Positions 2,750-33,842 of a stretch of DNA of 33,842 nt are shown here, piece after piece. The translations under genes and the position numbers were made by a program. Below the pieces are notes generated by a model that did no database searches, was not told the origin of the DNA, and was given only the letters and a program-made list of their open reading frames with translations. Source of the DNA: a virus. The stretch covers positions 1 through 33,842 of the IMG/VR virus record IMGVR_UViG_3300032331_002958; one strand, 5' to 3'. Numbering within the stretch: the stretch's first letter is position 1; every line of letters begins with the position of its first letter.

Positions 2750-3019
2750 TACCATATGTTAAATCATCATTTAAAATGTATAAAGATTTTAAATTCCTGA
2801 CCAAACTATGTTATATATTAAATCGTCATTTGGAATATCTGAGGCATTTACGTTATTTGCGGGAATATTACCATAAATTAAATCATCATTTGGAATATCT
2901 AAAGAATTTATATTATTTGCGGGAATGTTGGTATAAATTAAATCATCATTTGGAATATCTAAAGAATTTATATTATTTGCCGGAATGTTGGTATATAATA
3001 AATCATCGTTAGGTATTGA
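2745..3019 (-). repeat. 60-bp tandem repeat array (20-residue units) with a decayed copy after the stop codon
   Basis: Three near-identical 60-base units and a half unit encode residues 421-490 of the adjacent adhesin (2810-3019). The unit is NIPANNINSLDIPNDDLIYT with small changes. A further copy lies beyond the stop codon, at about 2745-2775: it would read LNDDLTYGN, but in a different frame. The array therefore once extended further, or the gene end has been moved by a frameshift. Confidence 0.85.
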
Positions 3020-10983: not shown

Positions 10984-10984
10984 T

Positions 10985-13014: not shown

Positions 13015-13673
13015 TGAATTATGTGAGTTTTAGTTTATGGGGTAACCAACCAATTTATAATGTTGGTGCAATTAGAAACGCTGAACTTATGAAAACAATT
13101 TACCCTGATTGGAAAATGATTGTTTATTATGACAACACAGTCCCAACCGAAACAATTGAAAAATTAAAAGAGTTGGGTGTCGTTGTTAAAGATATGACAG
13201 GTACCGACATTTATGGTATGTTTTGGAGATTTTTTGCTCACGATGAATCTGATTGTCAGTACGCTGTATTCAGAGATGCTGATGCCAGGGTAACCGAAAG
13301 AGAAAAACTTGCGGTTGAAGAATGGATTAACAGTGGAAAATCACTCCATGTAATGAGAGACCATCCAGCACACAGGATTCCTTATGGAAATTCAGGATTA
13401 GGTATTTTAGGTGGTATGTGGGGTATTAAATCGGGTATTATTCCACTCATAGATTTAATCAAACGATTCCCAAAATCAAAAGAACTTCAATATGGTAATG
13501 ACCAAACGTTCTTAAAAACAATATATTCGATATTTCAAGATGACAGATGTACACACGATGAATTCTTTGAAAATAAACCTTTTCCCATTAAAAGAAACCC
13601 TGGTGAGTTTATTGGAAGTCGTATTGACCATAATAATATGCCAGTTGGGACCGACCACTTGGCAGTATCATGA
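13014..13673 (+). CDS. GT-A-type glycosyltransferase
   Basis: 219 residues. The strand order and the phrase YAVFRDADARV (84-94), with an Asp-x-Asp at 88-90, fit a metal-dependent GT-A glycosyltransferase. Supporting parts are FWRFFAHDE, HVMRDHPAHR, GGMWGIKSG and YGNDQTFLK, which I recognise from a family found in phages and Bacteroidota. There is no membrane anchor, so it would act in the cytoplasm on a soluble or virion acceptor. It overlaps its neighbours by 1 base upstream and 4 bases downstream, which indicates one co-translated group. Confidence 0.65.
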   Translation: MNYVSFSLWGNQPIYNVGAIRNAELMKTIYPDWKMIVYYDNTVPTETIEKLKELGVVVKDMTGTDIYGMFWRFFAHDESDCQYAVFRDADARVTEREKLAVEEWINSGKSLHVMRDHPAHRIPYGNSGLGILGGMWGIKSGIIPLIDLIKRFPKSKELQYGNDQTFLKTIYSIFQDDRCTHDEFFENKPFPIKRNPGEFIGSRIDHNNMPVGTDHLAVS

Positions 13674-14299
13674 AAAAAATATTATATGTAATTCTTCACA
13701 CTTGTACAAGACCAGAAAGATATGATGGTGTTGTTAATAGTTGGGGTAAAGACGTAGATTATGTATTCTACGCAGATTGTGACAACAAAGAAAAAAATAT
13801 CATTAAAGCTTCTAATGACTCAACGTATAGTTCAAACGAACCAAAACATGTTAACATTATAAAATATTTGATTGAAAATAATTACCAATATGAATGGTTC
13901 TTTTTTTGTGATGATGATACATTTGTTAACACTAAAAATTTAGAAAAAAATCTAGACTTATTTGATAAAAACAAAATACATGGTTACATACTTAAAGCGA
14001 CTTGGCCATCAGATAAGTCATTAATTTATTGTTCTGGTGGTGGGGGATATTTAATACACAAAACACTTTTATCTACAATATCTAAAACAATTAAAACAAC
14101 TGATTCAGGTTATTCAGATGTTAGTTTAGGTATTTGTGCAAAATCATTAGGTATTGAATTTAACCATAATGAAAATTTTAAACCTTGTAACCATGAATAT
14201 TTTAAAGTAGAAAAAACTTTAATAAAAGATATTTTTACATTTCATTATGTAGACCCTGAATTAATGGGTGAACTATATGAAATATTAGATTTAAACTAA
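13670..14299 (+). CDS. Fringe/galactosyltransferase-like (GT31-type) glycosyltransferase
   Basis: 209 residues. Signatures in order match GT31 enzymes such as Fringe and core-1 beta-1,3-galactosyltransferase: HTCTRPERY near the N-terminus, the metal-binding FFFCDDDTFV (77-86), CSGGGGYLI (121-129), YSDVSLGICAKSLG (148-161) as the acidic acceptor-side motif, and FHYVDP (191-196) near the end. Animal homologues have a membrane anchor and a stem; this protein is only the catalytic core. The likely chemistry is beta-1,3 transfer of a hexose or hexosamine, by analogy; substrates are unknown. It overlaps the previous glycosyltransferase by 4 bases and is 3 bases from the dehydrogenase-like gene. Confidence 0.7.
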   Translation: MKKILYVILHTCTRPERYDGVVNSWGKDVDYVFYADCDNKEKNIIKASNDSTYSSNEPKHVNIIKYLIENNYQYEWFFFCDDDTFVNTKNLEKNLDLFDKNKIHGYILKATWPSDKSLIYCSGGGGYLIHKTLLSTISKTIKTTDSGYSDVSLGICAKSLGIEFNHNENFKPCNHEYFKVEKTLIKDIFTFHYVDPELMGELYEILDLN

Positions 14300-14302
14300 A
14301 TT

Positions 14303-15400
14303 ATGAATATTGGTATAATTGGTTTAGGGAATTTTGGTTACAACTTATCTGTATATTTTTCTAATTTTGGACACACCATATCCGTATCGGATAAAAACGA
14401 AACTAAGTTAGAAACAATTGGTTTTTCGTCATATTTGGACAACGTTGAAGTTATACGTAATTCAGATATTATTTTTTGTTGTGTGGATACTCATATCCTC
14501 CCATCAAATTTTTTGGACATTAAAAATGTGATGGATGTTGTGGAAGATTTTGGAATTGCATTTGAAAATGAAATTCCATTATATAATAAAATATTTGTTA
14601 TCTGTTCAACTTTAAATCCTGGTGATACAAAACAAGTATCAGAAATTTTAAACCCAATGAATTTAAATGTTTCTTATGTACCTTTAATTGTTAATTCTAA
14701 TAATGTTTTATTATCATTAGAATCTTTAGATACACTTGTTGTTGGAAATCTTGATTCTCACGTTTCAGGTAAAATTTCAAATCTATTTCAAAACAAAAAT
14801 TTGAAAGTTATAACAATGACTAGTAGGTCCGCAGAAATTTATAAATTGGCATACAGTTCATTCATTCATTACAAAATAAATTTTGCAAATTTTTTAGGTG
14901 AATTAATGATTAATTTTGGTTCATCAGATGAAACTAAATTATTACTAAAAAGTTTAGGTTATGATAAATCAATATCTGATGGAAATTTTGATTTTGGTTT
15001 TGGTGTTGGGGGTCCTTGGATTCCAACTGAAAATAGAGTATTTGGTCAAGTATGTAATGGAAATAGATTAAACTACATCTTACCGTTCGTAAACGATGAT
15101 TTTAATAAGAGTCATCAAACATATCTAAAAGAACATTTTACATCATTAAACACCGATAAAACCCAACCATTTATCGTTGAGGGTATTGGTTACAAGGACA
15201 ATTCAGGAAATATTATGGAATCTTCTAAATTATCTTTGGTTTATGATTTATTAAAAGATGGGTATGAAGTGTTTATTGTAGAAACTGAAGAGTTCATTAG
15301 AAATGTAAAAGTTGTTAAAGATTTAGTATCAGATTTTGGAGATAAAATAAAATTTTACAAAAAAGGAACGACGCCCAAAGGAGTATACATTAATTTTTAA
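14303..15400 (+). CDS. UDP-sugar dehydrogenase homologue lacking the catalytic cysteine
   Basis: 365 residues. The N-terminal Rossmann fold begins NIGIIGLGNFGYNL with a GxGxxG nucleotide site. Next come ICSTLNPGDTKQV (like the STVxPG motif), SAEIYKLAYSS with Lys181 (the conserved Lys of the family), and GFGVGGPWIPTENR. The C-terminal domain has IVEGIGYKDNSGNIMESSKL, matching the family's GxxxKxxxxDxRxS region. Family members oxidise UDP-glucose or GDP-mannose twice through a Cys thiohemiacetal in a GGSCF-type motif. Here that position is Trp239 (TGG codon), so normal four-electron oxidation is unlikely. It may be a sugar-binding protein, a different oxidoreductase, or inactive. The neighbouring glycosyltransferases suggest a link to sugar supply. 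Confidence 0.75.
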   Translation: MNIGIIGLGNFGYNLSVYFSNFGHTISVSDKNETKLETIGFSSYLDNVEVIRNSDIIFCCVDTHILPSNFLDIKNVMDVVEDFGIAFENEIPLYNKIFVICSTLNPGDTKQVSEILNPMNLNVSYVPLIVNSNNVLLSLESLDTLVVGNLDSHVSGKISNLFQNKNLKVITMTSRSAEIYKLAYSSFIHYKINFANFLGELMINFGSSDETKLLLKSLGYDKSISDGNFDFGFGVGGPWIPTENRVFGQVCNGNRLNYILPFVNDDFNKSHQTYLKEHFTSLNTDKTQPFIVEGIGYKDNSGNIMESSKLSLVYDLLKDGYEVFIVETEEFIRNVKVVKDLVSDFGDKIKFYKKGTTPKGVYINF

Positions 15401-15437
15401 TGTTTCTTTTATTACTAAATTTCATAGATTATAAATA

Positions 15438-16190
15438 ATGGAAAGAAAACCAAGAAAAAAACCCCTCATATCGGGTAAAATTACAACGGCTAGCGGAGAA
15501 ACAAAAACTCCAGCCAGAACAAAAAAAGATATTATCAACACTGTTATTCCAAGACCAACAAAAGAAAAATTTTTAACAGAAAATCAAAGGACTTACTATG
15601 AAAATTTGACAAAAAATCAAATTACAATATGTTCAGGTCCTGCTGGTGTTGGTAAATCATATATTGCCATGAAAGCGGCTGTTGATTTATTGAGGGACAC
15701 AAACAATTCGTATGAAAAAATAATGATTGTTAGACCAGCTGTTGAATCTGAAGAAAAACTTGGTTCATTACCGGGAACTTTAGAGGAAAAATTAGACCCA
15801 TATATTAGTCCATCTTATTATTTGTTAAATAAACTTATTGGTAAAGAAAATAGGGAGAAATTAATTGAATTAGAATTGATTGAAGTTCAAGCTTTAGCAT
15901 TTATTAGGGGTTGGAATATTGATAACACAATTTTAATTTTTGAAGAGGCTCAAAACAGTACACCAAATCAAATGAAATTATTATTAACACGTATTGGTTT
16001 TAATAGTAAGTTTTTTATCTCAGGTGATTTAGAACAAACTGATAGATACAAAGATAAAACCCAAACAGGATTATGGGATGCTATTAAGAAATTTAAAGAT
16101 ATGGATGATATTGGTATTTTTGAATTTGATGAAAATGACATTGTAAGAAACCCACTAATTACCAAAATATTAAAAAAATACGCAGAATGA
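15438..16190 (+). CDS. phoH: PhoH-like ATPase
   Basis: 250 residues. The P-loop GPAGVGKS is at 67-74, followed by IVRPAVESEEKLGSLPG (97-113) and the Walker B-type ILIFEEAQN (165-173), which carries Glu where many relatives have Asp; ISGDLEQTD (194-202) is the sensor-like motif. This order is diagnostic of PhoH. The N-terminal 45 residues are basic and probably flexible. PhoH proteins are RNA-associated ATPases and common in phages; the role in infection is not settled. A 37-base AT-rich gap separates it from the dehydrogenase-like gene, and the HAD gene starts inside its last codons. Confidence 0.9.
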   Translation: MERKPRKKPLISGKITTASGETKTPARTKKDIINTVIPRPTKEKFLTENQRTYYENLTKNQITICSGPAGVGKSYIAMKAAVDLLRDTNNSYEKIMIVRPAVESEEKLGSLPGTLEEKLDPYISPSYYLLNKLIGKENREKLIELELIEVQALAFIRGWNIDNTILIFEEAQNSTPNQMKLLLTRIGFNSKFFISGDLEQTDRYKDKTQTGLWDAIKKFKDMDDIGIFEFDENDIVRNPLITKILKKYAE

Positions 16191-16777
16191 GACTCGCAAT
16201 TGATATTGATGGTGTATTAAGGGATACATTTTTAAAAATTGAACAATTATATCAAAAATATTTTATTGATGAATTAGAAATTGTTGATGATGAGTTTGTT
16301 TATGAAATAAAAACACCATATGACACATCTGACTATCAAAATCATTTTATGTTTAAAAATGAAGAAGAATATATTTCATTTCTTTATGAAGAATTTGCAA
16401 TGCAGATTTTTGGTCACTCACCTTCATCAGAAATGTCCACATTTCAGATTTTAAATGAAACATACAACAAATATAAAGATAAGGTTGATTTTGTTTTAAT
16501 TTCTAAACAAGTTGGTAAAACAAAACCGGCAACATTGTTTTTTGTTTCAAAATTTGGATGTGAAATTGATAAAGTTGTTTTTTATAATAATCTTAATAAA
16601 GATAAAATTTGGGATGAATTTGATGTTTTATTAACAGCAAATCCTGATTTATTAAAAGAAGATAAAAATAAAACTACAATTAAATTTGAAACAACATATA
16701 ATTTAACTAATAATAACGAATTAGTTATAACTTCAATAAAAGAATTGGAGGATAAAATAGAAAACTTGCTTAAATAA
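16187..16777 (+). CDS. HAD-superfamily phosphatase, 5'(3')-deoxyribonucleotidase-like
   Basis: 196 residues. Motif I is AIDIDGVLRDT with nucleophile Asp6 and acid/base Asp8. Motif II is FVLISKQ (Ser106). A Lys in KTKPATL follows, and motif III lies at FDVLLTANPDLL with Asp146. The DGVL form and small cap fit the 5'(3')-deoxyribonucleotidase-like group, which dephosphorylates nucleotides, but other small phosphates are possible. Its start overlaps the phoH stop (ATGA), so the two are probably co-translated. Nucleotide metabolism is also the role of dut upstream. Confidence 0.65.
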   Translation: MRLAIDIDGVLRDTFLKIEQLYQKYFIDELEIVDDEFVYEIKTPYDTSDYQNHFMFKNEEEYISFLYEEFAMQIFGHSPSSEMSTFQILNETYNKYKDKVDFVLISKQVGKTKPATLFFVSKFGCEIDKVVFYNNLNKDKIWDEFDVLLTANPDLLKEDKNKTTIKFETTYNLTNNNELVITSIKELEDKIENLLK

Positions 16778-16778
16778 A

Positions 16779-17045
16779 ATGTTAGAATTACTAGGAGAAA
16801 ACTACTACCTCAATCTAGAAAGGATTGATAATTTTGTAAATGTACCATCTTCGGGAGACACCGAAGAAACTGATAAAATTGCATTTGTAAAATATGAAAT
16901 GATAAAAATAATGACTGATGTTATTATGAGTGAGACAGAAGATATTGATGAAAAATTGGGAAACAAAGCGTCATCGCAACTTACAATCCCTTTTAAATTA
17001 TCATGGAATACAATGTTATTTAATAAATTTATTGAAAAAATATAA
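16779..17045 (+). CDS. Small protein of unknown function
   Basis: 88 residues, acidic in the middle (SSGDTEETDK, then SETEDIDEKLG) with probable helices on either side. Starts 1 base after the HAD gene stop and ends 7 bases before the next glycosyltransferase, so it is probably part of the same transcript. No family recognised, and no membrane segment or Cys pair. Confidence 0.6.
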   Translation: MLELLGENYYLNLERIDNFVNVPSSGDTEETDKIAFVKYEMIKIMTDVIMSETEDIDEKLGNKASSQLTIPFKLSWNTMLFNKFIEKI

Positions 17046-17052
17046 TTAGACT

Positions 17053-18099
17053 ATGGAAAATGAAATGATAGAAAAAATCAAAGGTTCAATTGCAAATATT
17101 GAATCTAAATCAAACAGAATTTATTTCTTTGTTCAAGATACACGTGGAAACGCGAAAGCCTCAATTAAGTATATGTACGACATGGCTTTAACATTGAAGA
17201 ACGAAGGGTATAATGTTATTATGTTGTACGAGAAAAAAGAATATACACCAGTATCTTCTTGGTTAAATTCCGACTATGATGTTATTGAACATCAAATATT
17301 GGAAGGAACTAATTTAGCAATTTCACCTGAAGATACTTTAGTAATTCCTGAAATTTTTGGATTTATTATGGAACAGGTTAAAAACTTACCATGTGGTAAA
17401 ATTGTTTTAAGTCAGGCCTATGACCATATTTATGAAACAATTTCACCTGGAGCAAGTTGGTTCCAATATGGATTTCATAAATGTATTACAACATCTGACA
17501 TACAAAAAACTTACATAACAAATAATATGAAAAATGTATCAATTGACGTGATTACACCTGTTATTAGTGATGTTTTTGTTGAACCGGTGTTCCCACCTAA
17601 AACAATGATTGCTATGGTGTCAAGAGAACAAAGAGACGGTGTTAATATTATTAAGGAATTCTACAACAAATACCCACAGTATAGATTTTTTACATTTAAA
17701 GATTTAAGAGGTTTATCACATGAAGAATTTGCAAACGGTTTAAAAGATTGTTTTATGTCAGTATGGATTGACCCAACTTCTTCATTTGGAACATTCCCAC
17801 TAGAATCAATGAAAATGGGAATACCTGTTGTCGGTAAAGTACCAAATATGGTACCTGAATGGATGAAAGAAGACAATGGTGTTTGGATTGAAAACCATTT
17901 ACAATTTACTGATGTTATTGCTGATATGGTTCAAACTTGGTTGGAAGATAATGTGAAACCTGAATTATATACAAACTCAAAAGAAACTGCATCAAGATAT
18001 TCAGATATGGAAAAATTCAAATCTGAAGTTGTTTTTCTTTTTTCAGATTTTATAAATAAACGTAAAGAAGCTTTTGAAGCTCAAATATTAGAACAATAA
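17053..18099 (+). CDS. GT-B (GT4-like) glycosyltransferase
   Basis: 348 residues. The N-terminal half begins RIYFFVQDTRGNAKASIKYM, and the C-terminal half contains MIAMVSREQRDGVNIIKEF and the donor-site phrase SSFGTFPLESMKMGIPVVG (243-261), with Glu251 at the conserved acidic position of GT4-like enzymes. It is a soluble enzyme with no membrane segment. Donor and acceptor are unknown. It is followed after 5 bases by another glycosyltransferase, then by the late sigma factor, so glycosylation genes continue directly into the late-gene regulators. Confidence 0.75.
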   Translation: MENEMIEKIKGSIANIESKSNRIYFFVQDTRGNAKASIKYMYDMALTLKNEGYNVIMLYEKKEYTPVSSWLNSDYDVIEHQILEGTNLAISPEDTLVIPEIFGFIMEQVKNLPCGKIVLSQAYDHIYETISPGASWFQYGFHKCITTSDIQKTYITNNMKNVSIDVITPVISDVFVEPVFPPKTMIAMVSREQRDGVNIIKEFYNKYPQYRFFTFKDLRGLSHEEFANGLKDCFMSVWIDPTSSFGTFPLESMKMGIPVVGKVPNMVPEWMKEDNGVWIENHLQFTDVIADMVQTWLEDNVKPELYTNSKETASRYSDMEKFKSEVVFLFSDFINKRKEAFEAQILEQ

Positions 18100-18104
18100 T
18101 CGTT

Positions 18105-18911
18105 ATGGAAGAAAAATTAAATTTATCCGTTATATTACCAATTAAATCCGCTGTAGTTAAAGATTTTGACGAATTTTTTGACAAAGCGATTAAATCATTA
18201 AAAATCCAACAAATTGGTTTTAATGAATTAATAATTGTTCATACACAAGAAGAACAATTAGTTTCTAAATTAAAAGCGTATGATTTTGAATCATTAAACG
18301 TTAAATTAATTGAACATACTAAAGAACCAAATTATCAATCTCAAATTAATTTAGGTATTGAATCGGCATCTAGTGAATGGGTTTCGTTCTTTGAATTTGA
18401 TGATGAGTATTCTAACATTTGGTTTAAGAATGTTAAAAAATATTCTGAACTATACTCAGATGTTGAAGCGTTTTTACCAATTGTTGTTGATGTAGACCAT
18501 AAAGATGTGTTTGCAGGATTTACAAATGAAGCTACGTTTGCTGCAAATTTCACACAAGAAATGGGATATTTGAACAATGAAACTCTTTTAGATTATCAAA
18601 ATTTCCAAACCGCAGGTATGGTTGTTAAAAAATCAGTTTTAGAAGATTTTGGTGGGTTTAAACCATCAATGAAATTAACTTTTGTATATGAGTTCTTATT
18701 AAGAATTACATATAATTCAGTTAGAATCATGACTATTCCTAAAATTGGATACAAACATATGAGTATGAGAGAAGGTTCAATTTTTTGGAGTTACAAAAAT
18801 GGTGAAAGTACAATTACCAATGAAGAAGTTAAATTTTGGATTTCAACCGCAAAAAAAGAATATTTCTTTTCAAACGATAGAGATATAAAGTATGAAGTTC
18901 AAAGCGTTTAA
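18105..18911 (+). CDS. GT2-family glycosyltransferase
   Basis: 268 residues. Starts LSVILPIKS as in GT2 enzymes, with a donor-site Asp cluster in FFEFDDEYS (95-103), SQINLGIESASSEWVSF before it, and FQTAGMVVKKSVLEDFGGF at the acceptor side, a common GT2 pattern. It lacks a membrane anchor. The acceptor could be a protein or glycan of the virion, or DNA; nothing in the sequence decides this. Its stop overlaps the sigma factor start (TAATG). Confidence 0.7.
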   Translation: MEEKLNLSVILPIKSAVVKDFDEFFDKAIKSLKIQQIGFNELIIVHTQEEQLVSKLKAYDFESLNVKLIEHTKEPNYQSQINLGIESASSEWVSFFEFDDEYSNIWFKNVKKYSELYSDVEAFLPIVVDVDHKDVFAGFTNEATFAANFTQEMGYLNNETLLDYQNFQTAGMVVKKSVLEDFGGFKPSMKLTFVYEFLLRITYNSVRIMTIPKIGYKHMSMREGSIFWSYKNGESTITNEEVKFWISTAKKEYFFSNDRDIKYEVQSV

Positions 18912-23776: not shown

Positions 23777-25260
23777 TGTCTATATTAAGGTCATATTACA
23801 ACAAGAACAATACACTTGAGTATAACAATTATACCAACACTGGTAGAAACCCTGTAACTCAATTATTTTTTGGTGGTGATTTAGCCACTTTTGCCCCAAG
23901 AGGTTTCACAAGATTTTTATTTGATTTAGATTTAGTCTATCTTAGAGAACAAATTGCTTCAGGAGTTATTTCAACAGGATGTACGTCAGGAATGACACAT
24001 ATCCTTAACATGACAAACACAGCCTCGTTTGATATTGAATTATTAAATGGGACAACATCTGATGGTTCAAGAAGAGCAACATCATTTGATTTAATTTTAT
24101 TTAGAATCCCCGAATATTCAGGTTCTACAGGAAATCCTCAATATTGGGATGAAGGAGTTGGTTTTGATTATGTTTATCAACCCGCAGTTGCAGAATATTC
24201 AAACAATCAACCATTTAGCACTCGTCCATCAAACTGGTTTCAAGGTACCACATTAAATAATTGGTCATATCCAGGTTTATACAATAACACAAACACAATT
24301 GTAGGTAATTTTTCGGGTCTTAACTACTCAGCACTTACTATCATTGACAGACAACATTTTGAATTTGGTAATGAAGACATCACCTTTGACATGTCAAATG
24401 AAATTAATGGTATCTTACATGGTACAATTACAGGTGTTACAGGTTGGGGTGTTGCGTATGTTCCTGAAATTGAAAATATTATTGGTTTAACAGAAACATA
24501 CTCTGTTGGTTTCTTTACAAGACACACTCAAACATTTTATGAACCATATCTTCAAACAACGTATGATGATATTATCAAAGATGATAGAAACGAATTTCCT
24601 GCTGGTAGAACAAATAAATTGTATCTATATGCATATTCAAGTGGTGACTTTATGAATTTAGATACTGACCCTACTGTCACAATATTGGACCCAGATGGTA
24701 ACATTGTACCAGGAATGACAGCGTTAACAACTTGTTTAAGAACAAAAGGTGTTTATGAAGTTACAATTCCACCTATCACGGGTTATTCAACACCATGTCA
24801 ATTTACTGACCGATGGTCTAATTTAGTTAAAGGTGGTGTTACATTAAGTAATGTTGAAAATGAATTTGTATTACAAAGTCAATCATCAGTATATCAAATT
24901 GGTTATCAATCAAAAGACCCAATATTATACGGATTTGACTTTAGTGGTATTAAACAAAGCGAAAAGATACTCAATACAGACATTAGGAAGGTCATGGTGA
25001 CCATCAAACAAGCATACACGAGTCAGATAGTATTAAATGACATTGAAGCGTTCTATCGTGTTTATGTGAGGGAAGGGAATACTGAAGTACAAGTTCAGGA
25101 TTGGACTCCAATAAACAGAACGCCAAATGAGTATTATTTTATGTTTGACACTAGAGATAAAATACCAAATCAATATTATGTTGATATTCGTGTGAATACT
25201 AGTGGAGAGAAAGATACTTATCAAAGAGAATTAATGTTCCAAATCGTAAACAAAAAATGA
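23776..25260 (+). CDS. Virion structural protein (tail/baseplate type)
   Basis: 494 residues. The N-terminus (SILRSYYNKNNTLEYNNYTN, then RNPVTQLFFGGD and GFTRFLFDLDL) and the phrase HILNMTNTASFD match a structural family I associate with T4-like phages of Bacteroidota. The body is rich in aromatic residues, Thr and Gly, as in beta-sandwich virion proteins; ATSFDLILFRIPE and YWDEGVGFDY recall jelly-roll or carbohydrate-binding domains of tail proteins. The C-terminal part (FYRVYVREGNTEVQV, then PNQYYVDIRVN) is again beta-rich. No catalytic motif is visible. It has its own promoter-like box and overlaps the next gene by 4 bases. The exact place in the virion is unknown. Confidence 0.7.
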   Translation: MSILRSYYNKNNTLEYNNYTNTGRNPVTQLFFGGDLATFAPRGFTRFLFDLDLVYLREQIASGVISTGCTSGMTHILNMTNTASFDIELLNGTTSDGSRRATSFDLILFRIPEYSGSTGNPQYWDEGVGFDYVYQPAVAEYSNNQPFSTRPSNWFQGTTLNNWSYPGLYNNTNTIVGNFSGLNYSALTIIDRQHFEFGNEDITFDMSNEINGILHGTITGVTGWGVAYVPEIENIIGLTETYSVGFFTRHTQTFYEPYLQTTYDDIIKDDRNEFPAGRTNKLYLYAYSSGDFMNLDTDPTVTILDPDGNIVPGMTALTTCLRTKGVYEVTIPPITGYSTPCQFTDRWSNLVKGGVTLSNVENEFVLQSQSSVYQIGYQSKDPILYGFDFSGIKQSEKILNTDIRKVMVTIKQAYTSQIVLNDIEAFYRVYVREGNTEVQVQDWTPINRTPNEYYFMFDTRDKIPNQYYVDIRVNTSGEKDTYQRELMFQIVNKK

Positions 25261-25733
25261 AAAAAATAATTAGACTCCAAGAATCAGATATTACTGAATT
25301 AGTAAGAAAGATTTTATCTGAACAAAAAAGTGAAAGATACATGTTCTTTAGTAATTTAGAACAATTACACAGACAAACTGCAATGTTACTTGAATTAGGT
25401 CAAGACGCAATTGAAGGTATTTTAGACCACGGTCATGATTGGGCTCAAGACCACGTATCTGTTGCTAAAGAAAATATTGACCAAGTATTTGATTTTATGA
25501 TGAATGAAATTAATACCAACCATATAACTGATGATTCAATGGGTGATGTTGTACAAATAGGTGAAGGAAAAAAGAAAACAGGAACAAAACTTTGTGTTCG
25601 TGGTAAAGCGGCGGCTAAATCAAAGTTTGATGTCTACCCAAGTGCATACGCTAATGGATATGCAGTTCAAGTATGTAAAGGTAGGATGCCTGGTTTAGAT
25701 GGTAAAAAACATTGTTCAGGTTCTTATTGTTAA
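25257..25733 (+). CDS. Small virion-type protein with N-terminal helix/cleavage motif and Cys-rich basic C-terminus
   Basis: 158 residues. Residues 2-22 (KKIIRLQESDITELVRKIL, then SE) form an amphipathic helix ending Leu-Ser-Glu, which fits T4-type capsid targeting and (I/L)-x-E cleavage by the prohead protease. Residues 28-90 are helical and acidic. The C-terminus is basic with four Cys (positions 113, 140, 153, 158) and has KSKFDVYPSAYANGYAV, a phrase recurring in small proteins of many T4-like phages. It may be packaged in the head, with the Cys residues holding a metal or disulfides; this is inference. It overlaps the preceding gene by 4 bases. Confidence 0.65.
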   Translation: MKKIIRLQESDITELVRKILSEQKSERYMFFSNLEQLHRQTAMLLELGQDAIEGILDHGHDWAQDHVSVAKENIDQVFDFMMNEINTNHITDDSMGDVVQIGEGKKKTGTKLCVRGKAAAKSKFDVYPSAYANGYAVQVCKGRMPGLDGKKHCSGSYC

Positions 25734-27064: not shown

Positions 27065-27274
27065 TTATTCTGTTGGTGGCCAATCTATTGTGTCGGACAA
27101 TGTTAGATTTGTTGACGCTGTTCTATAGGTAAATTCAGTGTACCAAATATCAATAGTAACCAATGGTGGAATTTCATAGTTATCAATAGTTAAGTTGTTT
27201 GAACATTGTTCAAATGATATCACACCATAGCTGGTTGACGAAGTATTTGTTATTGTTGATTTTTTACAAGCCAT
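27065..27274 (-). CDS. Stand-alone copy of the adhesin N-terminal module
   Basis: 69 residues. Matches the first 70 residues of the protein starting at 1622: both begin M-(A/G)-C-x-KSTITN, share Val-x-(I/V)-Trp-Tyr (TIDIWY, TVDVWY) and end in a Trp-Pro-Pro (DWPP, GWPP). Here the gene stops right after that module, without linker or beads. It could be a head- or tail-attachment subunit that competes with or seats the long protein, or the ancestral unit. It has a late-type box 17 bases upstream and lies immediately downstream of the capsid terminator. Confidence 0.65.
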   Translation of the reverse strand: MACKKSTITNTSSTSYGVISFEQCSNNLTIDNYEIPPLVTIDIWYTEFTYRTASTNLTLSDTIDWPPTE

Positions 27275-27291
27275 AATTTTTTTATTTACAT

Positions 27292-27299
27292 ATAAATAT
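27292..27299 (-). promoter_or_regulatory. Candidate late promoter box ATATTTAT
   Basis: Minus-strand ATATTTAT then ATGTAAA, 17 bases before the start at 27274 and directly after the terminator of the capsid gene, so the 69-residue gene has its own transcript start. Confidence 0.5.
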
Positions 27300-27311
27300 C
27301 TATTAAATAAA

Positions 27312-27336
27312 AAAAGGGGACTTTTGGTCCCCTTTT
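27312..27336 (-). terminator. Rho-independent terminator after the major capsid gene
   Basis: 10-bp perfect stem AAAAGGGGAC/GTCCCCTTTT with a 5-base loop, followed on the minus strand by a T-run. It lies 20 bases beyond the stop codon of the capsid gene and is well placed to end the head transcript. Confidence 0.9.
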
Positions 27337-27355
27337 CTTTTTATGAATTTTGAGA

Positions 27356-29224
27356 TTATCTCAATTCTTGTAAGTTGAATGTTCTTACACCATCAACTGT
27401 AACTCTACCATAGAAACGGTTATTAACCATTTTCTTAGCGTATCTTGTCATGATACCTTTGATAGGTGTGAAGTTGAATGGGTTATACATAGTTGGTGTC
27501 AACTGTAAAGGAACATATGGAGCGTAGATGTAACCAGTATCCAACAAGCTTGTACCTTTGTGTCCGATTAAGACTTGGTTAGCTGGGAAGTAAGGGTCAC
27601 GATACACTTGGTATCTTCCTGACAATGTACCGATTCTTTCAATACCCATGTTGTATTGGTCTTGGTCAGGAGCTGCGTTTGATACGTGGAAGTATTCCAA
27701 ATCATCAAAGATAGCTGAAACTTCAGAAGATACAACAATCCAGTTAGCTCCACCTCTCAATGTTGATTTGTGGATTTGAGCTGACAATTGGTTGATTGCT
27801 GTAATCAAAGTTTGGTTCCAATCTTTTTGAGTGTATGGTGTAGTTCCAGAAGAAGCTAGTCTCTTCCAACCGTTGTAATCCCATCTCAAGTTCCAAGCCG
27901 CACCTTTTCTCAAATCTCTCAAGATTTCTCTATCAATTTCTGCTGCAACTTGCTCAGATAATAATGCTGTCAATTCAGCTTCAGCATCAATGTTGTGGAA
28001 CGCCGCAACGTCTTGAGCTAATTCAGGAGACCATTGTGCTCTCAATTTTCTTTCTGTAACAGAAACTGTTACTGACTCAAGGTCAAAAGAAACTTCACCA
28101 ATTTGGTCTTCAAATTCCAACTCTTTATACAATCTGTAAACCGCAATAAACGCACCGTTATTAGCTGTGTTAGATGAGAATGTTGAACCTGTGTAACCAT
28201 CCATAGATGTATCACCACAAGAAATACAAACTGGTACTTGTAAATCAAGCTCTAAGTAAATGAAACCGTTAGCATCACATACGTTGTAGTAAGAACCACC
28301 TGAGTTAGCATTTTGAGTTGCTGCAGGACCGTTAGGGAAATTAGTGTTTACATTATTTCCGTATTGTACAATACCTTTACCATATCTTTGAGTTACAACT
28401 CTAAATAAATAAGGATTAACAGTATTTGCAGATGTTGTTGTGTTAGTTGGTACACCGAAGATGTTCAAACCTGATAAGAATTCTTCTGTATCCATAGTGT
28501 TACCATTTGGACCAATCAATTGACCAGCACCAGCGTTAGAGAATCCACTCATAATGATGATTACTTTTCTGTAATTATCAAGTGAATAACCTGATTGTAC
28601 TAAGTAACCACCTGAATTCCATACCCAAGTAGTAGTTGAAGCTGTTACAGCAGTCCACTGACCTTTAGAATAATCAAACAATCCTGGAGGGTCCAAAGAT
28701 GGTTCGTTACCTTCGTAGAATAAATCATACAAATCTTTATTGTAGATGTCGTTGTAACCTGCTCCACCTGAAGGAACACTAGTGTATCCATTGTTTGGGT
28801 CACCAGGATAGTTTCCTGGAGAACCTACAGGAGCGTAGTGTTGACCACTGTTACCAAAGTATCCGTTAGTAGAAGTACCACCAGAATAACCTTGAATTTT
28901 AGGTACGAAGTAGAACAATTTACCGATAGGTAAGTTCATTGCTTGTACAGACACGATGTCGTTCGCTAATAATTTAGAGAATACTCTTCTCACGATTGGG
29001 AAAACAACCGTTTCAAAAGAACCAGAGTCAGAAGTTGAAGAAGCTTCGTTGATTAAGTGTGAAGCTTGGTTTTCATACAACTGAGCAACGTTTTCTTTCA
29101 TGTGACCTTTTAGACCTTCTAAAAAGCCAAGTTTATCCCATTTGTTAATTGTGTCTTCTTTGATAACTTTTAAGTGTTTTAAACCAATGTTACCAACAAG
29201 ACCGCTTTCTAATAATGCACCCAT
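27356..29224 (-). CDS. Major capsid protein, gp23-type
   Basis: 622 residues. Residues 76-89 (PIVRRVFSKLLAND) and the following VSVQ are the hallmark of T4 gp23, and the end (YIYAPYVPLQLTPTMYNPFN, then FTPIKGIMTRYAKK) also matches. gp23 forms the hexamers of the head after cleavage of its N-terminal about 65 residues; here HLINE at 56-60, followed by Ala-Ser-Ser, gives a Glu60/Ala61 cut after (I/L)-x-E. It is about 100 residues longer than T4 gp23, mainly in a Gly/Asn/Tyr-rich stretch near 111-330, probably an enlarged insertion domain at the surface. A strong terminator follows. No typical promoter box is visible just upstream, so it may be transcribed with the scaffold gene. Confidence 0.95.
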   Translation of the reverse strand: MGALLESGLVGNIGLKHLKVIKEDTINKWDKLGFLEGLKGHMKENVAQLYENQASHLINEASSTSDSGSFETVVFPIVRRVFSKLLANDIVSVQAMNLPIGKLFYFVPKIQGYSGGTSTNGYFGNSGQHYAPVGSPGNYPGDPNNGYTSVPSGGAGYNDIYNKDLYDLFYEGNEPSLDPPGLFDYSKGQWTAVTASTTTWVWNSGGYLVQSGYSLDNYRKVIIIMSGFSNAGAGQLIGPNGNTMDTEEFLSGLNIFGVPTNTTTSANTVNPYLFRVVTQRYGKGIVQYGNNVNTNFPNGPAATQNANSGGSYYNVCDANGFIYLELDLQVPVCISCGDTSMDGYTGSTFSSNTANNGAFIAVYRLYKELEFEDQIGEVSFDLESVTVSVTERKLRAQWSPELAQDVAAFHNIDAEAELTALLSEQVAAEIDREILRDLRKGAAWNLRWDYNGWKRLASSGTTPYTQKDWNQTLITAINQLSAQIHKSTLRGGANWIVVSSEVSAIFDDLEYFHVSNAAPDQDQYNMGIERIGTLSGRYQVYRDPYFPANQVLIGHKGTSLLDTGYIYAPYVPLQLTPTMYNPFNFTPIKGIMTRYAKKMVNNRFYGRVTVDGVRTFNLQELR

Positions 29225-29261
29225 TTTAATTTTATTTTTGTTTTTAGTTTTATGTTTATTT

Positions 29262-30944
29262 TTATTTTACGATTTTAGACATGATATCTTTCATTCTTAA
29301 GAATTGAGGATTTTCATATGTCTTAGATTCAATTAGTGTTTGTGATGAACCTGATACTGGTGATTTTTCAATCTTAGACATAGATTCAGTAACAACACTT
29401 TGATTATTACTTGTTAATTCATTTTTGATAGAGCCATATAATGACTTTGATTCTTTCAAAGTTTCAACATCATCAAATCTTCTTAGGATATTGATTTTTT
29501 CTTGTTTAGTTGTTGTATGTTCTGTAAACAATCTTGTAGCGTAAGCCAAGTTTGAATTAAATACTGCAACTTCGTTTAACTTTTCTCTGAAAATATTTAA
29601 AGCTTTTCTATACTCTTCATTTTTTTCTCTCAATTGAGATACTTCTTCAGAAAGAGCTGAATTAGGTCTAACTTTCATTTTTGGTAAACCTTTTCTCATT
29701 GGGTAATTTCTTGTACCATTAGATAAAGTTCTGGCCGCTTCTGTAGTTTCTTCTTTTTCAAACGCTTTTCTTTTTAATGTATCACCTTTTTTGGTTGTAT
29801 AATCTTTATCACCTTTGTGAGTTTTAGATTCTTCACCTTTGTTCATTCCGTACTTACCTTCTTTATATTCAAATTTCTTTGGAGATAAATTCATACCAAC
29901 ACCTTTAGCACTACCTTTTGGTTCAATAGATGCTTCTTTTGTTTCCATTTTTTTACCTTCTTTGTATTCAAATTTAGCTGAACCGGTTTTAACACCTTTA
30001 CCAACTACTGGTTTTGCCATCATTGAACCTTCTTTGGTTTCCATTTTCTTTGCTTTGTTTGTTAATGAAGATTTTGTTAATTTTCCTCTAACAGGTGAAA
30101 TTGTCATTTTACCTTCTGACACTGAACCAGTATCATTGTTATCGTCATCGTCATCGTCATCATCCTCATCCATTTCTATTTCATAAACAACTTCGCCTTC
30201 TTCATTTTCATCTCCTTCATACATGTCTTCTTCATACATGTCTTCTTCATCTATGTCTTCAGTTTGGAACATACTTTGCATTAAATCGTTTAACATGTCA
30301 TCAGACATTTCTTCGTTTTCATCCATTTCCGTGTAATTTTTGTCGTATTTCATATCGTTTTTTAAATCACGGATATGAGCTGCATCATCTTCTTCTGCAC
30401 CTCTGTAATGGTCGTAGCCGTGTCCTTCTTCCATTTCTCCTTCATTCCATTCCTCATCCATAATTGATTCATTTTCATCACCTTCCATTTGAATAATGTA
30501 TTCCACATCTTCGTTTTCATCCTCTAAGCTGATTTGGTCATCGTCTTTTGTTACAATGATGCCATCATTATCACCCATACGTTTAAAAACCTTTAAGATT
30601 TCTTCATCAGAAGCGTTTGTAAGGTCAATTGGTTGTTCATCTTCCAAGTCCGTGTCTAAACCCATTCCCATTACGCCATCAACATCAGATTCATCGTCAT
30701 CATCCATATCTAGGTCAATGTCAAATTCATCTTCGTCTCCCATGTCGTCCATAGAATCAATTTCAACGCCCGTCTCTTCTTCACCTTGTTCGTTAATCTC
30801 TCTTTTTAGAGATTCTTTTACTAATTCTGAGATTTCTTCCTTCATTGTTGAAGCAAGTATTCCTTTTGCATTTTCAGTCACTACATCTTCCAAATTTTTC
30901 ATTTGAAGTAGTGCTTCCTCGACTAATGACTTTTTGTCTGCCAT
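29262..30944 (-). CDS. Prohead core scaffold protein, gp22-like
   Basis: 560 residues from the ATG at 30944. An ATG at 30983 would add 13 residues, but the later start lies 24 bases after a promoter box that the longer form would run through. The N-terminal part is helical (KKSLVEEALLQMKNLEDVV) and reaches KREINE at 47-52, followed by Gln, a likely (I/L)-x-E cut. Then come long Asp/Glu-rich stretches, a Lys-rich middle with two related repeats (KMETKEGSM and KMETKEASI, each near FEYKEGK), and a C-terminal coiled-coil-like part. Acidic core scaffolds are typical of the gp22 position between protease and capsid. Sequence identity to T4 is low; the call rests on position and composition. Confidence 0.7.
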   Translation of the reverse strand: MADKKSLVEEALLQMKNLEDVVTENAKGILASTMKEEISELVKESLKREINEQGEEETGVEIDSMDDMGDEDEFDIDLDMDDDDESDVDGVMGMGLDTDLEDEQPIDLTNASDEEILKVFKRMGDNDGIIVTKDDDQISLEDENEDVEYIIQMEGDENESIMDEEWNEGEMEEGHGYDHYRGAEEDDAAHIRDLKNDMKYDKNYTEMDENEEMSDDMLNDLMQSMFQTEDIDEEDMYEEDMYEGDENEEGEVVYEIEMDEDDDDDDDDNNDTGSVSEGKMTISPVRGKLTKSSLTNKAKKMETKEGSMMAKPVVGKGVKTGSAKFEYKEGKKMETKEASIEPKGSAKGVGMNLSPKKFEYKEGKYGMNKGEESKTHKGDKDYTTKKGDTLKRKAFEKEETTEAARTLSNGTRNYPMRKGLPKMKVRPNSALSEEVSQLREKNEEYRKALNIFREKLNEVAVFNSNLAYATRLFTEHTTTKQEKINILRRFDDVETLKESKSLYGSIKNELTSNNQSVVTESMSKIEKSPVSGSSQTLIESKTYENPQFLRMKDIMSKIVK

Positions 30945-30968
30945 ATAAATTTTAGAATAATTTACATA

Positions 30969-30976
30969 ATAAATAT
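30969..30976 (-). promoter_or_regulatory. Candidate late promoter box ATATTTAT
   Basis: Minus-strand ATATTTAT followed by TATGTAAA, 24 bases before the start at 30944. A hairpin at 30980-30998 lies just upstream of it. Confidence 0.45.
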
Positions 30977-30979
30977 ATC

Positions 30980-31020
30980 CCAACTTAAAAAAAGTTGGTG
31001 TTGGGTTGGCATAAACCCAA
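30980..31020 (-). other. Two small hairpins upstream of the scaffold gene
   Basis: CCAACTT/AAGTTGG (30980-30998, 5-base loop) and TTGGGTT/AACCCAA (31001-31020, 6-base loop). They sit between the terminator at 31030-31057 and the promoter box. They may be weak back-up terminators or operator-like sites; the function is not shown. Confidence 0.5.
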
Positions 31021-31029
31021 AATAAATAA

Positions 31030-31057
31030 AAAAACCCCTCGGTTAAGAGGGGTTTTT
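31030..31057 (-). terminator. Rho-independent terminator after the DUF4494-like gene
   Basis: 11-bp perfect stem AAAAACCCCTC/GAGGGGTTTTT with a 6-base loop, and a T-run on the minus strand. It begins 1 base past the stop codon at 31059 and separates the protease transcript from the scaffold and capsid genes. Confidence 0.9.
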
Positions 31058-31058
31058 G

Positions 31059-31271
31059 TTAATCTTCAATAACTTCGTCAATCTTACTTTCGGATACTGC
31101 CGTGATTCTCCAGTCATGTTGGAACCCCGTGTATCGTGAAGTAACCTTGGCTTCTACATCGGTTACTGAGTAACCTTTTACCAATTTCTCTTCTCTAATT
31201 TTTTTCAATTTACCTGTATTTTCATCAGGTAGTTCGTACTGTACTTTTGCTACAAAATATTTCTCATCCAT
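31059..31271 (-). CDS. DUF4494-like small protein
   Basis: 70 residues. The pattern KYFVAKVQYE, then EEKLVKGYSVTDVEAKV, then DWRITAVSESKIDEV fits DUF4494, a small family I associate with Bacteroidota chromosomes and their phages (FVAKVRYE start, middle Glu-Ala, and an INxIxKxxxxE end). Function unknown. It sits between protease and scaffold, 10 bases after the protease stop, where T4 has no gene. It may have a head-assembly role or simply be co-expressed. It is useful evidence for a Bacteroidota host. Confidence 0.7.
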   Translation of the reverse strand: MDEKYFVAKVQYELPDENTGKLKKIREEKLVKGYSVTDVEAKVTSRYTGFQHDWRITAVSESKIDEVIED

Positions 31272-31281
31272 GTTTTTAATA

Positions 31282-32010
31282 TTATTTGTCCAAATAATGG
31301 TTTAATTTTTTCAATAAGTCAATAGAGCGATTCATTCCTTTTTCACTTACACCAATATTTGGAGTTCTTAAATTCTTTTCTTCATCTAAGTTTTCTTCAA
31401 AATTATTTCTATCCTCAACGTTTGTAAACAAATATGCTCCTGGTGTAGATGGTGATGAGACTAAATCAAAACAAATTAATTCAAAATCATCTTGTACTTC
31501 ATTTTGTTCACCCGTCTTTTTTAAAGAACCAACACCACGTGAAGATATACCTAATGTAACCCCTTGTCTTAGTAAGTTTGCCGCTTGGTCACCCTTGGTA
31601 GAGACAATACCTCTTTCATGGAACCCAGGTGACGTTAGAAGCTTTAATTTACCCATAAGTATGTGTCCGTCCCACCATACCTCATTAATGATGTGAGATA
31701 CACGGTCAAGGTCAATTAACGATGATTCAGGGTGGTTTAATTCAGACAATGATGTTCCTTTAGAAATCATGGTCTTATAGTTCTCAGCTTCTCTTTTGAG
31801 AATCTTTTCAGGATACACTCTTCCATTACGGTTTGGTGTATTGTATTTTTGTAGTACGGCATAGAATTCAAATGGTTTAGAATAATCCAACATGCTTTTG
31901 TTGGCTTGTTCCAATAAATTCTTGTTGTGAGAATCGTTTGGAGATATATATCCCGCATCCATTTCTATTAATATTCCTTTACCCGTATCTTGTGGTCCTA
32001 ATATTTTCAT
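31282..32010 (-). CDS. Prohead maturation protease, gp21-type
   Basis: 242 residues. Signature parts are NRNGRVYPEKIL (60-71), SELNHPESS with His93, VGHILMGKL-like GHILMGKLKLL, LGISSRGVGS with the catalytic Ser among 156-157, and DDFELICFDLVSSPSTPGA (174-192). These match T4 gp21 and the wider herpes-type prohead protease fold (Ser-His plus a third residue). It cleaves scaffold and capsid proteins after (I/L)-x-E during head maturation. T4 gp21 is about 212 residues; the extra length here is at the C-terminus, probably self-cleaved. A promoter box lies 15 bases upstream. It is co-oriented with the DUF4494-like gene. Confidence 0.9.
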   Translation of the reverse strand: MKILGPQDTGKGILIEMDAGYISPNDSHNKNLLEQANKSMLDYSKPFEFYAVLQKYNTPNRNGRVYPEKILKREAENYKTMISKGTSLSELNHPESSLIDLDRVSHIINEVWWDGHILMGKLKLLTSPGFHERGIVSTKGDQAANLLRQGVTLGISSRGVGSLKKTGEQNEVQDDFELICFDLVSSPSTPGAYLFTNVEDRNNFEENLDEEKNLRTPNIGVSEKGMNRSIDLLKKLNHYLDK

Positions 32011-32025
32011 AAAAACATTTTAGTA

Positions 32026-32033
32026 ATAAATAC
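32026..32033 (-). promoter_or_regulatory. Candidate late promoter box GTATTTAT
   Basis: Minus-strand GTATTTAT followed by TACTAAA, 15 bases before the protease start at 32010. It lies just outside the stop of the preceding gene. Confidence 0.5.
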
Positions 32034-32035
32034 CA

Positions 32036-32479
32036 TCAAATAGTATCTTTTACTTTTTTTGATATAGTAAAATCAAAATACTCGTTATTCTTGAAATTAT
32101 CTACGTAGATTGCTTTGGCAATTTTTTTAAGTTTTTCTTTAAGTTGGGGGTCTTTGAAATCCGTATTTTCATTTAAAAACAAAGTTATTTCTAAATTCAT
32201 AAAACTTTTTTTTCCGTAAAATATTCCACTTGTTCTTAAATCTAAATCTACAATATTTGTTTCTTTGAATGTGTCTTTATCGGCAATTTCGTAAACGGTG
32301 TGCTTTATATTTCTTCCAAAATTTCCAACAATCCTTTCCCATTTTTCATAATTTTCTTTTGGTGATACCCAACTTTGTAAGTTTAGATATACTGATTTGA
32401 AATTTTTTGAATCAACTGTACCATAACTCACTTTTGAATCACTAAATCCTATGATTCGTGCCGTTTTTCCTTTTTTCAT
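32036..32479 (-). CDS. Conserved phage protein of unknown function
   Basis: 147 residues. Parts such as FKSVYLNLQSWVSPKENYEK, IKHTVYEI, IVDLDLRTSGIFYGKKSFMN and LEITLFLNE look like a conserved family of small proteins from T4-like phages of Bacteroidota. A beta-rich core is likely, followed by a helix (LKEKLKKIAKAIYVDNF). No catalytic motif. Its start is at 32479, with an AT-rich upstream containing GTATTTAA, one base off the promoter box. It sits in the head cassette, but its role is not known. Confidence 0.65.
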   Translation of the reverse strand: MKKGKTARIIGFSDSKVSYGTVDSKNFKSVYLNLQSWVSPKENYEKWERIVGNFGRNIKHTVYEIADKDTFKETNIVDLDLRTSGIFYGKKSFMNLEITLFLNENTDFKDPQLKEKLKKIAKAIYVDNFKNNEYFDFTISKKVKDTI

Positions 32480-32577
32480 TAATTTTCATTTTAAATACAT
32501 TTATTTTATTGATTAAATTTAACTGATTTTAATTACCATGTCAAACTTTTTGGTATAATTGAATTATTTAATAAGAT

Positions 32578-32772
32578 ATGTTAAAAGTTAAAATAGATAA
32601 TAACCAAAATTTGGAGAAAGCATTGAAAGTTCTCAAAGGAAAGGTAATCAAAACTAAGCAAACTGAAAAGTTGCGTGAGAAATTAAAATACGAGAAAAAA
32701 AGTGTTTTGAAAAGAAATCAGAAATTGAAAGCCAAATACGTCCAATCTCAAAAAAATAAAGATAATTTATAA
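32578..32772 (+). CDS. rpsU: Phage-encoded ribosomal protein bS21
   Basis: 64 residues, strongly basic. The order MLKVKI, then NLEKALKVLKGKVIKTKQ, then LREKLKYEKKSVLKRNQK, then LKAKYVQS fits the bS21 family, especially the Bacteroidota form (VxEGENxxxALKxxKRKxxKT, then KPSVxRR and a Lys-Ala-x-Tyr tail). bS21 sits near the 3' end of 16S rRNA on the small subunit and, in Bacteroidota, is reported to help hide the anti-Shine-Dalgarno sequence. The gene is alone on the plus strand inside the minus-strand head cassette and overlaps the converging next gene by 6 bases. The upstream AATAAG before ATG is only a weak ribosome site. A TATAAT at 32552 region could be its promoter. Confidence 0.75.
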   Translation: MLKVKIDNNQNLEKALKVLKGKVIKTKQTEKLREKLKYEKKSVLKRNQKLKAKYVQSQKNKDNL

Positions 32773-33468
32773 GTTGTTGTGGAGATTGTATAATCTCACA
32801 TAATTGATTTTTGAAAAAGTATCTGACTGAACCTGTTCAATGGTTTCTTGTAATTTCATACTAGTAACGTCATCTAAAGATTCTGTGATGTTACTCAATT
32901 TACCAATAGTTTTTGACTTTAATTCATCAAATTCTTTTGAGAGTTCCACATCTTCTGTCATTAATACTTTTGACAAATCTCTCTTGGAATCTTCATCTAA
33001 ATTTTCAATGTATCCCTTGATTGATTTGTTGGCTATGTTTAATAAAGTTTCAATTGGTAAATTAATGTGAGATTTAATCTCAGATGATTCACTCAATAAT
33101 TTTATTAAAGTTTTTTTACTGATAACAGTCTCCATAATTTTGTCTGGAGTACCATAAACAATATTGTCAATATCTTTGTAGTTATTTTCACACACCACAT
33201 CTTTAACCCAATATTCAATACGTTGTGTTTTTAATTTTGGTAAAAAATTTTCAATGTGTTTTAAAGATTCATTAATAAATGATTCGGCGATTTCTTTATC
33301 ATAACCTTTTTTCTTAGACAACTCAGTATAAATGTAAAACATTGTACTGGCGTTTTTATTTTCCAATACCAAATGCCTAAAGTTTTTCAACTCAATTTTA
33401 GCCGTTTCATTAACATAAGAGTTAATTAATAACTCTTCTATTTTACTCATTAATTGTCCAAATTTCAT
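32767..33468 (-). CDS. Helical protein between portal and protease, possibly a prohead core protein
   Basis: 233 residues from the ATG at 33468, preferred because a promoter box lies 14 bases before it; an upstream ATG at 33495 would add 9 residues and would run through the box. The product is helical and charged (IELKNFRHLVLENKN, then YDKEIAESFINESLKHIENF, then ELSKEFDELKSKTIGKLSNI) without hydrophobic segments. T4 has the core genes 67 and 68 at this place between portal gene 20 and protease gene 21; I infer a similar role from position and composition only. It overlaps the bS21 gene by 6 bases, tail to tail. Confidence 0.65.
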   Translation of the reverse strand: MKFGQLMSKIEELLINSYVNETAKIELKNFRHLVLENKNASTMFYIYTELSKKKGYDKEIAESFINESLKHIENFLPKLKTQRIEYWVKDVVCENNYKDIDNIVYGTPDKIMETVISKKTLIKLLSESSEIKSHINLPIETLLNIANKSIKGYIENLDEDSKRDLSKVLMTEDVELSKEFDELKSKTIGKLSNITESLDDVTSMKLQETIEQVQSDTFSKINYVRLYNLHNNL

Positions 33469-33482
33469 AATAGGTTTTATTA

Positions 33483-33490
33483 ATAAATAT
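33483..33490 (-). promoter_or_regulatory. Candidate late promoter box ATATTTAT
   Basis: Minus-strand ATATTTAT followed by TAATAAA, 14 bases before the ATG at 33468. It lies 1 base downstream of the stop codon of the portal-position gene and decides the choice of start for the following gene. Confidence 0.55.
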
Positions 33491-33491
33491 A

Positions 33492-33842
33492 TCAATCTAT
33501 TAGTTTTCTAAGAGAATCTTCAATTTCTCCTAAAGAACGACTACCCCTTTCCAAATCAATGTCATCAACACCATAAATATTTTCACGTTCTAAGATAATA
33601 TTCATGTCTTTTTTAACTGACTCGGGTGTAACTCCACCTGCTCCTGGTGTTTCTCCACCTGCCGATGGTATACTTTCAGCTGGAGGTGTTCCAAAGCTTT
33701 CTGATGGTGGTGCTTCATTACCAAATCCTTCAAATCCCCCACCTTCTGTTGGTGGATTTTCAGTTGCTCCTGAAGTACTCTTATTTCCATATAATCTATC
33801 AAGACTATCAAAGATACCTGTCTTAGTAATAACGTTACCTGT
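33492..33842 (-). CDS. C-terminal part of the portal-position protein (gp20-like by location)
   Basis: 116 residues visible, entering from the right edge with an open frame and ending TGA at 33492-33494. The visible part is a Gly/Pro/Glu-rich, probably flexible stretch (GGGFEGFGNEAPPSESFG, then AGGETPGAGGV), then a short helical end (IYGVDDIDLERGS, then LGEIEDSLRKLID). The T4 order puts portal vertex protein gp20 just before the core, protease, scaffold and capsid genes. The visible part lacks a diagnostic portal motif, so the name rests only on position. Confidence 0.5.
   Translation of the reverse strand, partial: TGNVITKTGIFDSLDRLYGNKSTSGATENPPTEGGGFEGFGNEAPPSESFGTPPAESIPSAGGETPGAGGVTPESVKKDMNIILERENIYGVDDIDLERGSRSLGEIEDSLRKLID

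Follow-up and report, generated by a model that had tools for sequence, protein, structure and literature searches.

What would a phage do with a ribosomal protein whose gene stands alone against the direction of its head genes, and what would that protein do to the ribosomes of the host? Phage ribosomal proteins are common in lakes, and bS21 is already known from many lake phages. The case considered here is a gene for bS21 (32578..32772, plus strand) in a 33,842-nt stretch of viral DNA, the whole of which we call the window (IMG/VR record IMGVR_UViG_3300032331_002958, positions 1 to 33,842). It is the sole plus-strand gene within 27065-33842; the prohead protease, the major capsid protein (MCP), both flanking hypothetical genes, and the rest of the interval are on the minus strand. 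Separated from bS21 by a 98 bp gap is a divergent gene (32036..32479), followed by the prohead protease of the Peptidase S77 family (31282..32010; PF03420, E 3.6e-23; phrog_207, E 8e-44), a 70-aa DUF4494 protein (31059..31271; PF14902, E 2.9e-9, profile positions 1-64 of 139), an acidic protein which by its place between protease and MCP and by its composition probably occupies the scaffold position (29262..30983, where an ATG start would fall at 30944), and an MCP of the Gp23 family (27356..29224; PF07068, E 7.9e-73) whose relatives in IMG/VR are 75-91% identical. Family searches gave no match for the acidic protein and no confident match for the convergent hypothetical gene on the other side, which is taken from the open reading frame list (32767..33495, minus strand) and overlaps the end of bS21 by 6 bp. 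The open reading frame list and the family matches agree with the original prediction of a lone bS21 gene running counter to the head cassette, which is of T4 type. The reverse-strand bS21 with protease and MCP within a few genes is the arrangement of the phages of Chen et al. (2022). As an observation apart, the DUF4494 protein corresponds to the first half of the profile alone and lies between the protease and the protein in scaffold position; phage immuto, a T4-like Flavobacterium phage, has a DUF4494 gene too, at another place in its genome.

The gene is a real, conserved phage homologue of bS21. Pfam profile PF01165 (Ribosomal_S21) matches the 64-aa product with 33.5 bits (E 3.4e-8; gathering cut-off 27), aligning residues 4-55 of 64 with profile positions 2-53 of 55, and it matches all 32 members of an alignment of 29 phage and 3 host bS21 sequences (A3). 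The NCBIfam equivalog model TIGR00030 (S21p) gives the window protein 24.4 bits, 4.5 short of its cut-off of 28.95, and gives two sister phages 32.0 and 33.2 and host bS21s of Bacteroidota 46.6-54.7, so the window protein is a diverged bS21 homologue and no equivalog by that rule. Its top match among solved structures is the Flavobacterium johnsoniae bS21 (PDB 7jil_z, E 1.1e-6, residues 1-60). The AF2 model (pLDDT 90.5) predicts helices at 12-25, 28-36, and 41-63, consistent with the Ribosomal_S21 fold of short helices in a chain of 55-70 aa as found in ribosomes, and Foldseek ranks ribosomal bS21 chains first, at E-values (0.14 and worse) that are weak, as expected for so short a chain. Residue 54 is tyrosine in the window, and each of the 29 phage rows of the alignment has an aromatic residue there (28 Tyr, 1 Phe); in the F. 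johnsoniae ribosome, Tyr54 stacks through its ring on A1534 in the tail of the 16S rRNA (PMC9976891). An aromatic residue here is a mark of Bacteroidia-type bS21 that sequesters the anti-Shine-Dalgarno (ASD) sequence in a pocket shared with host bS18 and bS6, a role that we carry over from published work (PMC9976891, PMC9723584) and that the phage protein would share. Among relatives, pN/pS of bS21 is 0.09-0.31, and it is 0.11-0.31 for the window gene set against its relatives, which indicates purifying selection. The N-terminal region reads KGKVIKTKQ in phages versus KRKFDKTGT in hosts. The prediction that this open reading frame encodes bS21 is therefore borne out by the profile match, by a nearest solved relative from a Bacteroidia ribosome, and by Tyr54.

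The locus is shared by related phages, and not all of them have the gene. We took as informative those relatives with an MCP at least 75% identical and with enough flanking sequence (n = 28, some of them near-copies), leaving out L345, whose contig starts inside the neighbor gene, and L272 and L273, with short flanks. bS21 has the same place and orientation in 24 of the 28, lying 3.1-4.9 kb upstream of MCP. The other four (L325, L327, L329, and L350) retain both neighbors with bS21 absent between them and so form a natural comparison set; no bS21 was found elsewhere on their contigs (11-51 kb). The MCP tree requires at least three gains or losses of bS21 at this locus, which, together with its absence from four relatives, indicates that the gene is dispensable or replaceable. 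We found no earlier report of such repeated gain and loss beside a neighbor that stays.

The four bS21-less relatives bear on two ideas about what surrounds the gene. The divergent neighbor (32036..32479, minus strand, 147 aa) can be equated by position and orientation with bS21_CN of Chen et al. (PMC9723584). We collected 47 distinct sequences of it adjoining bS21, and it is also kept in the four relatives that lack bS21, which makes the published proposal of a functional pair less convincing, given an identity with bS21_CN that rests on position; the proposal that the neighbor serves bS21 specifically, perhaps as a protease removing host bS21, is weakened likewise. Its AF2 model (pLDDT 89) has one confident structural match, an uncharacterized 146-aa tailed-phage protein (TM 0.87), with no PDB match at E <0.001 and no VIA match at Z >=8. 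Between the two genes lies the element GTCAAACTTTT (32540..32550, assigned to the minus strand, where it reads TTTGAC). All 50 phage bS21 leaders have its GTCAAA core, where chance would give about 1% each. GTCAAA also survives in three of the four bS21-less relatives, all of which have the divergent gene, and is degraded to AGTCAGA in the fourth, L350, so that the likeliest assignment of the element is to the promoter of the divergent gene. A bS21-specific operator of the form GTCAAAnTTTT is rejected on account of the same three relatives.

What sets the phage gene apart from its host counterpart lies in the leader. Host rpsU is autoregulated: its leader has an extended Shine-Dalgarno (SD) sequence, and bS21-less ribosomes are the ones that use it (McNutt et al., 2023; PMC9976891). 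We computed pairing of the 16S tail (UCACCUCCUUUCU) with positions -22..-2 of each leader by the same method for phage and host, with one ASD tail applied to all hosts and Chryseobacterium-type ASDs outside the scoring. Host rpsU leaders (59 distinct, from Flavobacteriia and Bacteroidales) range from -10.6 to -19.8 kcal/mol with a mean of -18.0, and phage bS21 leaders (50 distinct) from -3.6 to +2.1 with a mean of -0.5, so that the two ranges do not overlap; mock windows for phage and host leaders give about +0.5 to +0.9 kcal/mol. By the published threshold for an extended SD (< -13 kcal/mol; PMC9976891), 49 of 59 host leaders have one and all 59 are below -8, versus none of the 50 phage leaders even below -8. 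The SD of Bacteroidales rpsU is weaker (-10.6 to -12.3), and a strong rpsU SD is thus not universal in Bacteroidota. Judged by its leader sequence, then, the phage bS21 gene is without the ribosome-sensing SD switch of the host. The further expectation that strong SD sites are lacking throughout the window also holds (mean -0.9 versus -1.8 kcal/mol in the mock window, with one gene at -9.4). Since hardly any gene of these phages has an SD, absence alone is no proof of selection, and it may reflect conformity with the phage gene style rather than a selected escape. In the literature that we searched, with subscription papers outside the search, we found no study devoted to the SD or the promoter of phage rpsU, and within that literature the SD contrast with host rpsU and the leaderless bS21 mRNA predicted below appear to be new.

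The window gene has, 7 nt before its ATG, a TATTTA box (32565..32570, plus strand; box at -13), the putative -10 element of a late-type promoter. Most phage bS21 leaders have TATTTA 6-7 nt upstream of the ATG, and the full module of GTCAAA, spacer, TATTTA, 5-18 nt, and ATG is found in 46 of the 50 distinct leaders. The position of the box suggests a transcription start at the ATG, and the bS21 mRNA is thus probably leaderless. A genome-wide motif scan of two large relatives (295 and 269 kb, 288 free leaders) placed TATTTAT among the top leader motifs. TATTTA falls at -14..-10 in 62 of 288 phage free leaders. F. johnsoniae, sampled over 400 kb, has it there in 4 of 244 (p 1e-13), and phage immuto, where bS21 was not found, has it in 1 of 74 (p 4e-6 versus the large relatives); the p-values are optimistic because leaders of related phages are not independent. 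The host-type -7 box, TAnnTTTG, likewise has its phage peak at -12 (25/288), whereas host copies lie at about -44 to -25. A box at -12 fronts about 30% of free leaders in the two large relatives and 4% in F. johnsoniae. In that host, transcription starts 4-5 nt after the -7 box and leaders average 33 nt (PMC6847099). That two unrelated boxes stand at the same distance points to starts at the ATG and to many leaderless mRNAs, that of bS21 among them. Across L211-L245 (contigs G001, G003, and G006), the late-type TATTTAT and the host-type TAnnTTTG each have their peak at precisely 12 nt upstream of the ATG, and leaderless transcripts are predicted for about 30% of genes with free leaders, unlike in F. 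johnsoniae and phage immuto. If true, genome-wide leaderless mRNAs would be an oddity for phages whose hosts make mostly leadered mRNAs.

The box also bears on when the gene is expressed. It had been suggested that a bS21 gene alone on its strand can be expressed independently of the late head genes, and one part of that suggestion stands, since its own promoter-like TATTTA at -13 would allow expression apart from the minus-strand genes. The other part is misleading, because TATTTA fronts the head genes too and bS21 is therefore probably co-regulated with them as a late gene, with which published RNA data agree.

Such leaders invite the reading that phage bS21 chooses messages: its N-terminal half, which has diverged and is close to the path of the mRNA, would favor the SD-less and often leaderless mRNAs of the phage over those of the host. 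This is the selection hypothesis already in print, with leaderless mRNAs put in as the class that gains. The N-terminal region is indeed unlike that of the host (PMC9723584), leaderless mRNA can be translated on E. coli 61S ribosomes, which lack bS1, uS2, and bS21 (PMC4929434), and the peak of both boxes at -12 in the phages differs from the 87% of predicted F. johnsoniae transcripts that have a leader of >10 nt (PMC6847099). Host mRNAs are SD-less too, however, so SD-lessness confers no selectivity. Within the head region most TATTTA boxes stand at -20 to -40, giving short leaders, with about 6% of leaders having a box at -12, and -12 boxes are present also in relatives without bS21 at the locus, so leaderlessness does not track bS21. 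A narrower version, in which phage bS21 selects leaderless late head genes, predicts that head genes are leaderless and that bS21-less relatives show no such leaders; these last two observations go against both predictions and leave it unsupported. We consider message choice as a whole unlikely.

The explanation that we favor, and hold to be fairly probable, is that a late bS21 replaces or tops up the host protein, occludes the ASD, and escapes, and perhaps silences, the SD-based autoregulation of rpsU. Phage bS21 would be made late from its own promoter and would replace or top up host bS21 on 30S subunits, where its conserved C-terminal helix and Tyr54 would keep the ASD tail occluded. In these hosts the best translators of rpsU are bS21-less ribosomes, acting through the extended SD in its leader. 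The phage copy, with no SD and probably no leader, would escape throttling once ribosomes had their full complement of bS21; as it occupied those still without, it would remove the translators of host rpsU, and phage bS21 would progressively displace host bS21 and could change which mRNAs are translated. A stronger form, in which leaderless phage bS21 is a one-way exploit that shuts off rpsU and marks ribosomes as those of the phage, and which may favor the predicted, unusually frequent leaderless mRNAs of these phages, is possible but speculative. The SD contrast sharpens the vague idea that phage bS21 selects phage mRNA into one that is directly testable: if the favored explanation is true, phage bS21 expressed in F. 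johnsoniae should lower rpsU'-gfp, the published read-out of bS21-less ribosomes, and the phage bS21 leader should be unresponsive.

A plainer account needs no link to the host circuit and no selectivity: the phage gene could be a spare copy for host bS21 that is lost or turned over. bS21 can leave ribosomes (PMC9976891), virus-carried ribosomal proteins tend to be exchangeable ones (PMC6375957), and the absence of SD sites is the general style of these phages. The long separate phage branch described below, with its own conserved N-terminal motif, exceeds what a spare copy needs, and we rate simple supplementation as doubtful, if a real contender. Less probable again is that the protein is a poison of host translation or a brake on it, or that it works away from the ribosome, in the virion for instance. 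The bS21 of pelagiphage HTVC008M, the one phage bS21 put to experiment, enters E. coli 70S ribosomes, which are then almost inactive in vitro and make about 5% of the normal amount of protein (Mizuno et al., 2019; PMC6375957), a result that makes poisoning rather than retuning possible, and the place of the gene in the head cassette fits the suggested packaging of bS21 in virions (PMC9723584). Late expression, however, falls when the phage itself needs translation, and the conserved ribosome-binding helix and Tyr54, with purifying selection as in a working bS21, speak against such roles; we find this group of explanations quite improbable.

Phylogeny separates the phage proteins from those of hosts without naming a host. 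In a bS21 tree (64 columns; host sample consisting of the closest hits), 40 phage and 22 host sequences split cleanly with support of 100/99, the phage sequences forming a single branch that nests with no sampled host, so the hope that bS21 phylogeny would name the host fails. Features that may bear on a host in Bacteroidetes are that the nearest solved bS21 is that of F. johnsoniae, that matches to the MCP include a Flavobacterium phage, and that host-type TAnnTTTG boxes occur in the large relatives. As part of the favored explanation, we think it reasonably likely that the virus is a myovirus of Bacteroidota of the 'bS21 phage' kind. Among the host sequences, L132, filed as Bifidobacterium breve, has a Flavobacterium-type rpsU with an extended SD and is likely a contaminating contig in a metagenome-assembled genome.

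Several features elsewhere in the window deserve mention in their own right. An N-terminus like MKKIIRLQESDITELVRKILSEQ or MKIIITESQ recurs on otherwise different proteins (25257-25733 and 8034-8429 in the window, and many L219-L220 genes), and has the appearance of a propeptide, or of a tag directing proteins to the capsid, that the prohead protease would remove. Two long minus-strand proteins (3-1622 and 2789-4279) are rich in TPTPTxTPTNT repeats and are probably on the virion surface or in fibers. Between structural blocks (9074-18911) lie several glycosyltransferase-like genes and PhoH (15438-16190), of which PhoH alone is confirmed by profile. No TerL gene was identified in the window, a 33.8 kb fragment.

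Both the arrangement and the hypothesis of competition for ribosomes have been published, and the window belongs to that kind. Chen et al. (2022; PMC9723584) described the arrangement in 47 genomes of Bacteroidetes-infecting phages, the complete ones being 293-331 kb, in which bS21 lies on the reverse strand, is expressed late along with capsid genes, shares a transcript with its neighbor bS21_CN, and has an aromatic residue 54, and they proposed that phage bS21 enters ribosomes and favors phage mRNA. As in their clades a-e, bS21 in the window lies opposite the head cassette, between two hypothetical genes and near protease and MCP; as in their phages, there is a divergent neighbor in the bS21_CN place, Tyr54, and PhoH, and relatives are on contigs of 112-295 kb, the 295 kb contig having a bS21 75% identical to that of the window. 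Chen et al. make no mention of promoters, leaders, or autoregulation (PMC9723584), and in two phages lacking bS21 they found bS21_CN absent as well, whereas the four bS21-less relatives here keep the neighbor. Three huge phages (LR756501, LR756502, and LR756504) have bS21 homologues 41-49% identical, with no TATTTA or TAnnTTTG peak at -12 in the 40 kb surrounding it. Pelagiphage HTVC008M, which we set beside the window by description, likewise carries bS21 in a T4-like myovirus and differs in its alphaproteobacterial host. With the bS21 of Flavobacteriia hosts (rpsU; F. johnsoniae 7jil; PMC9976891), the window protein shares length, helices, Tyr54, and about 40% identity, and it differs in a diverged N-terminal helix and in a gene that has a box at -13 and no extended SD, where the host SD is near -20 kcal/mol.
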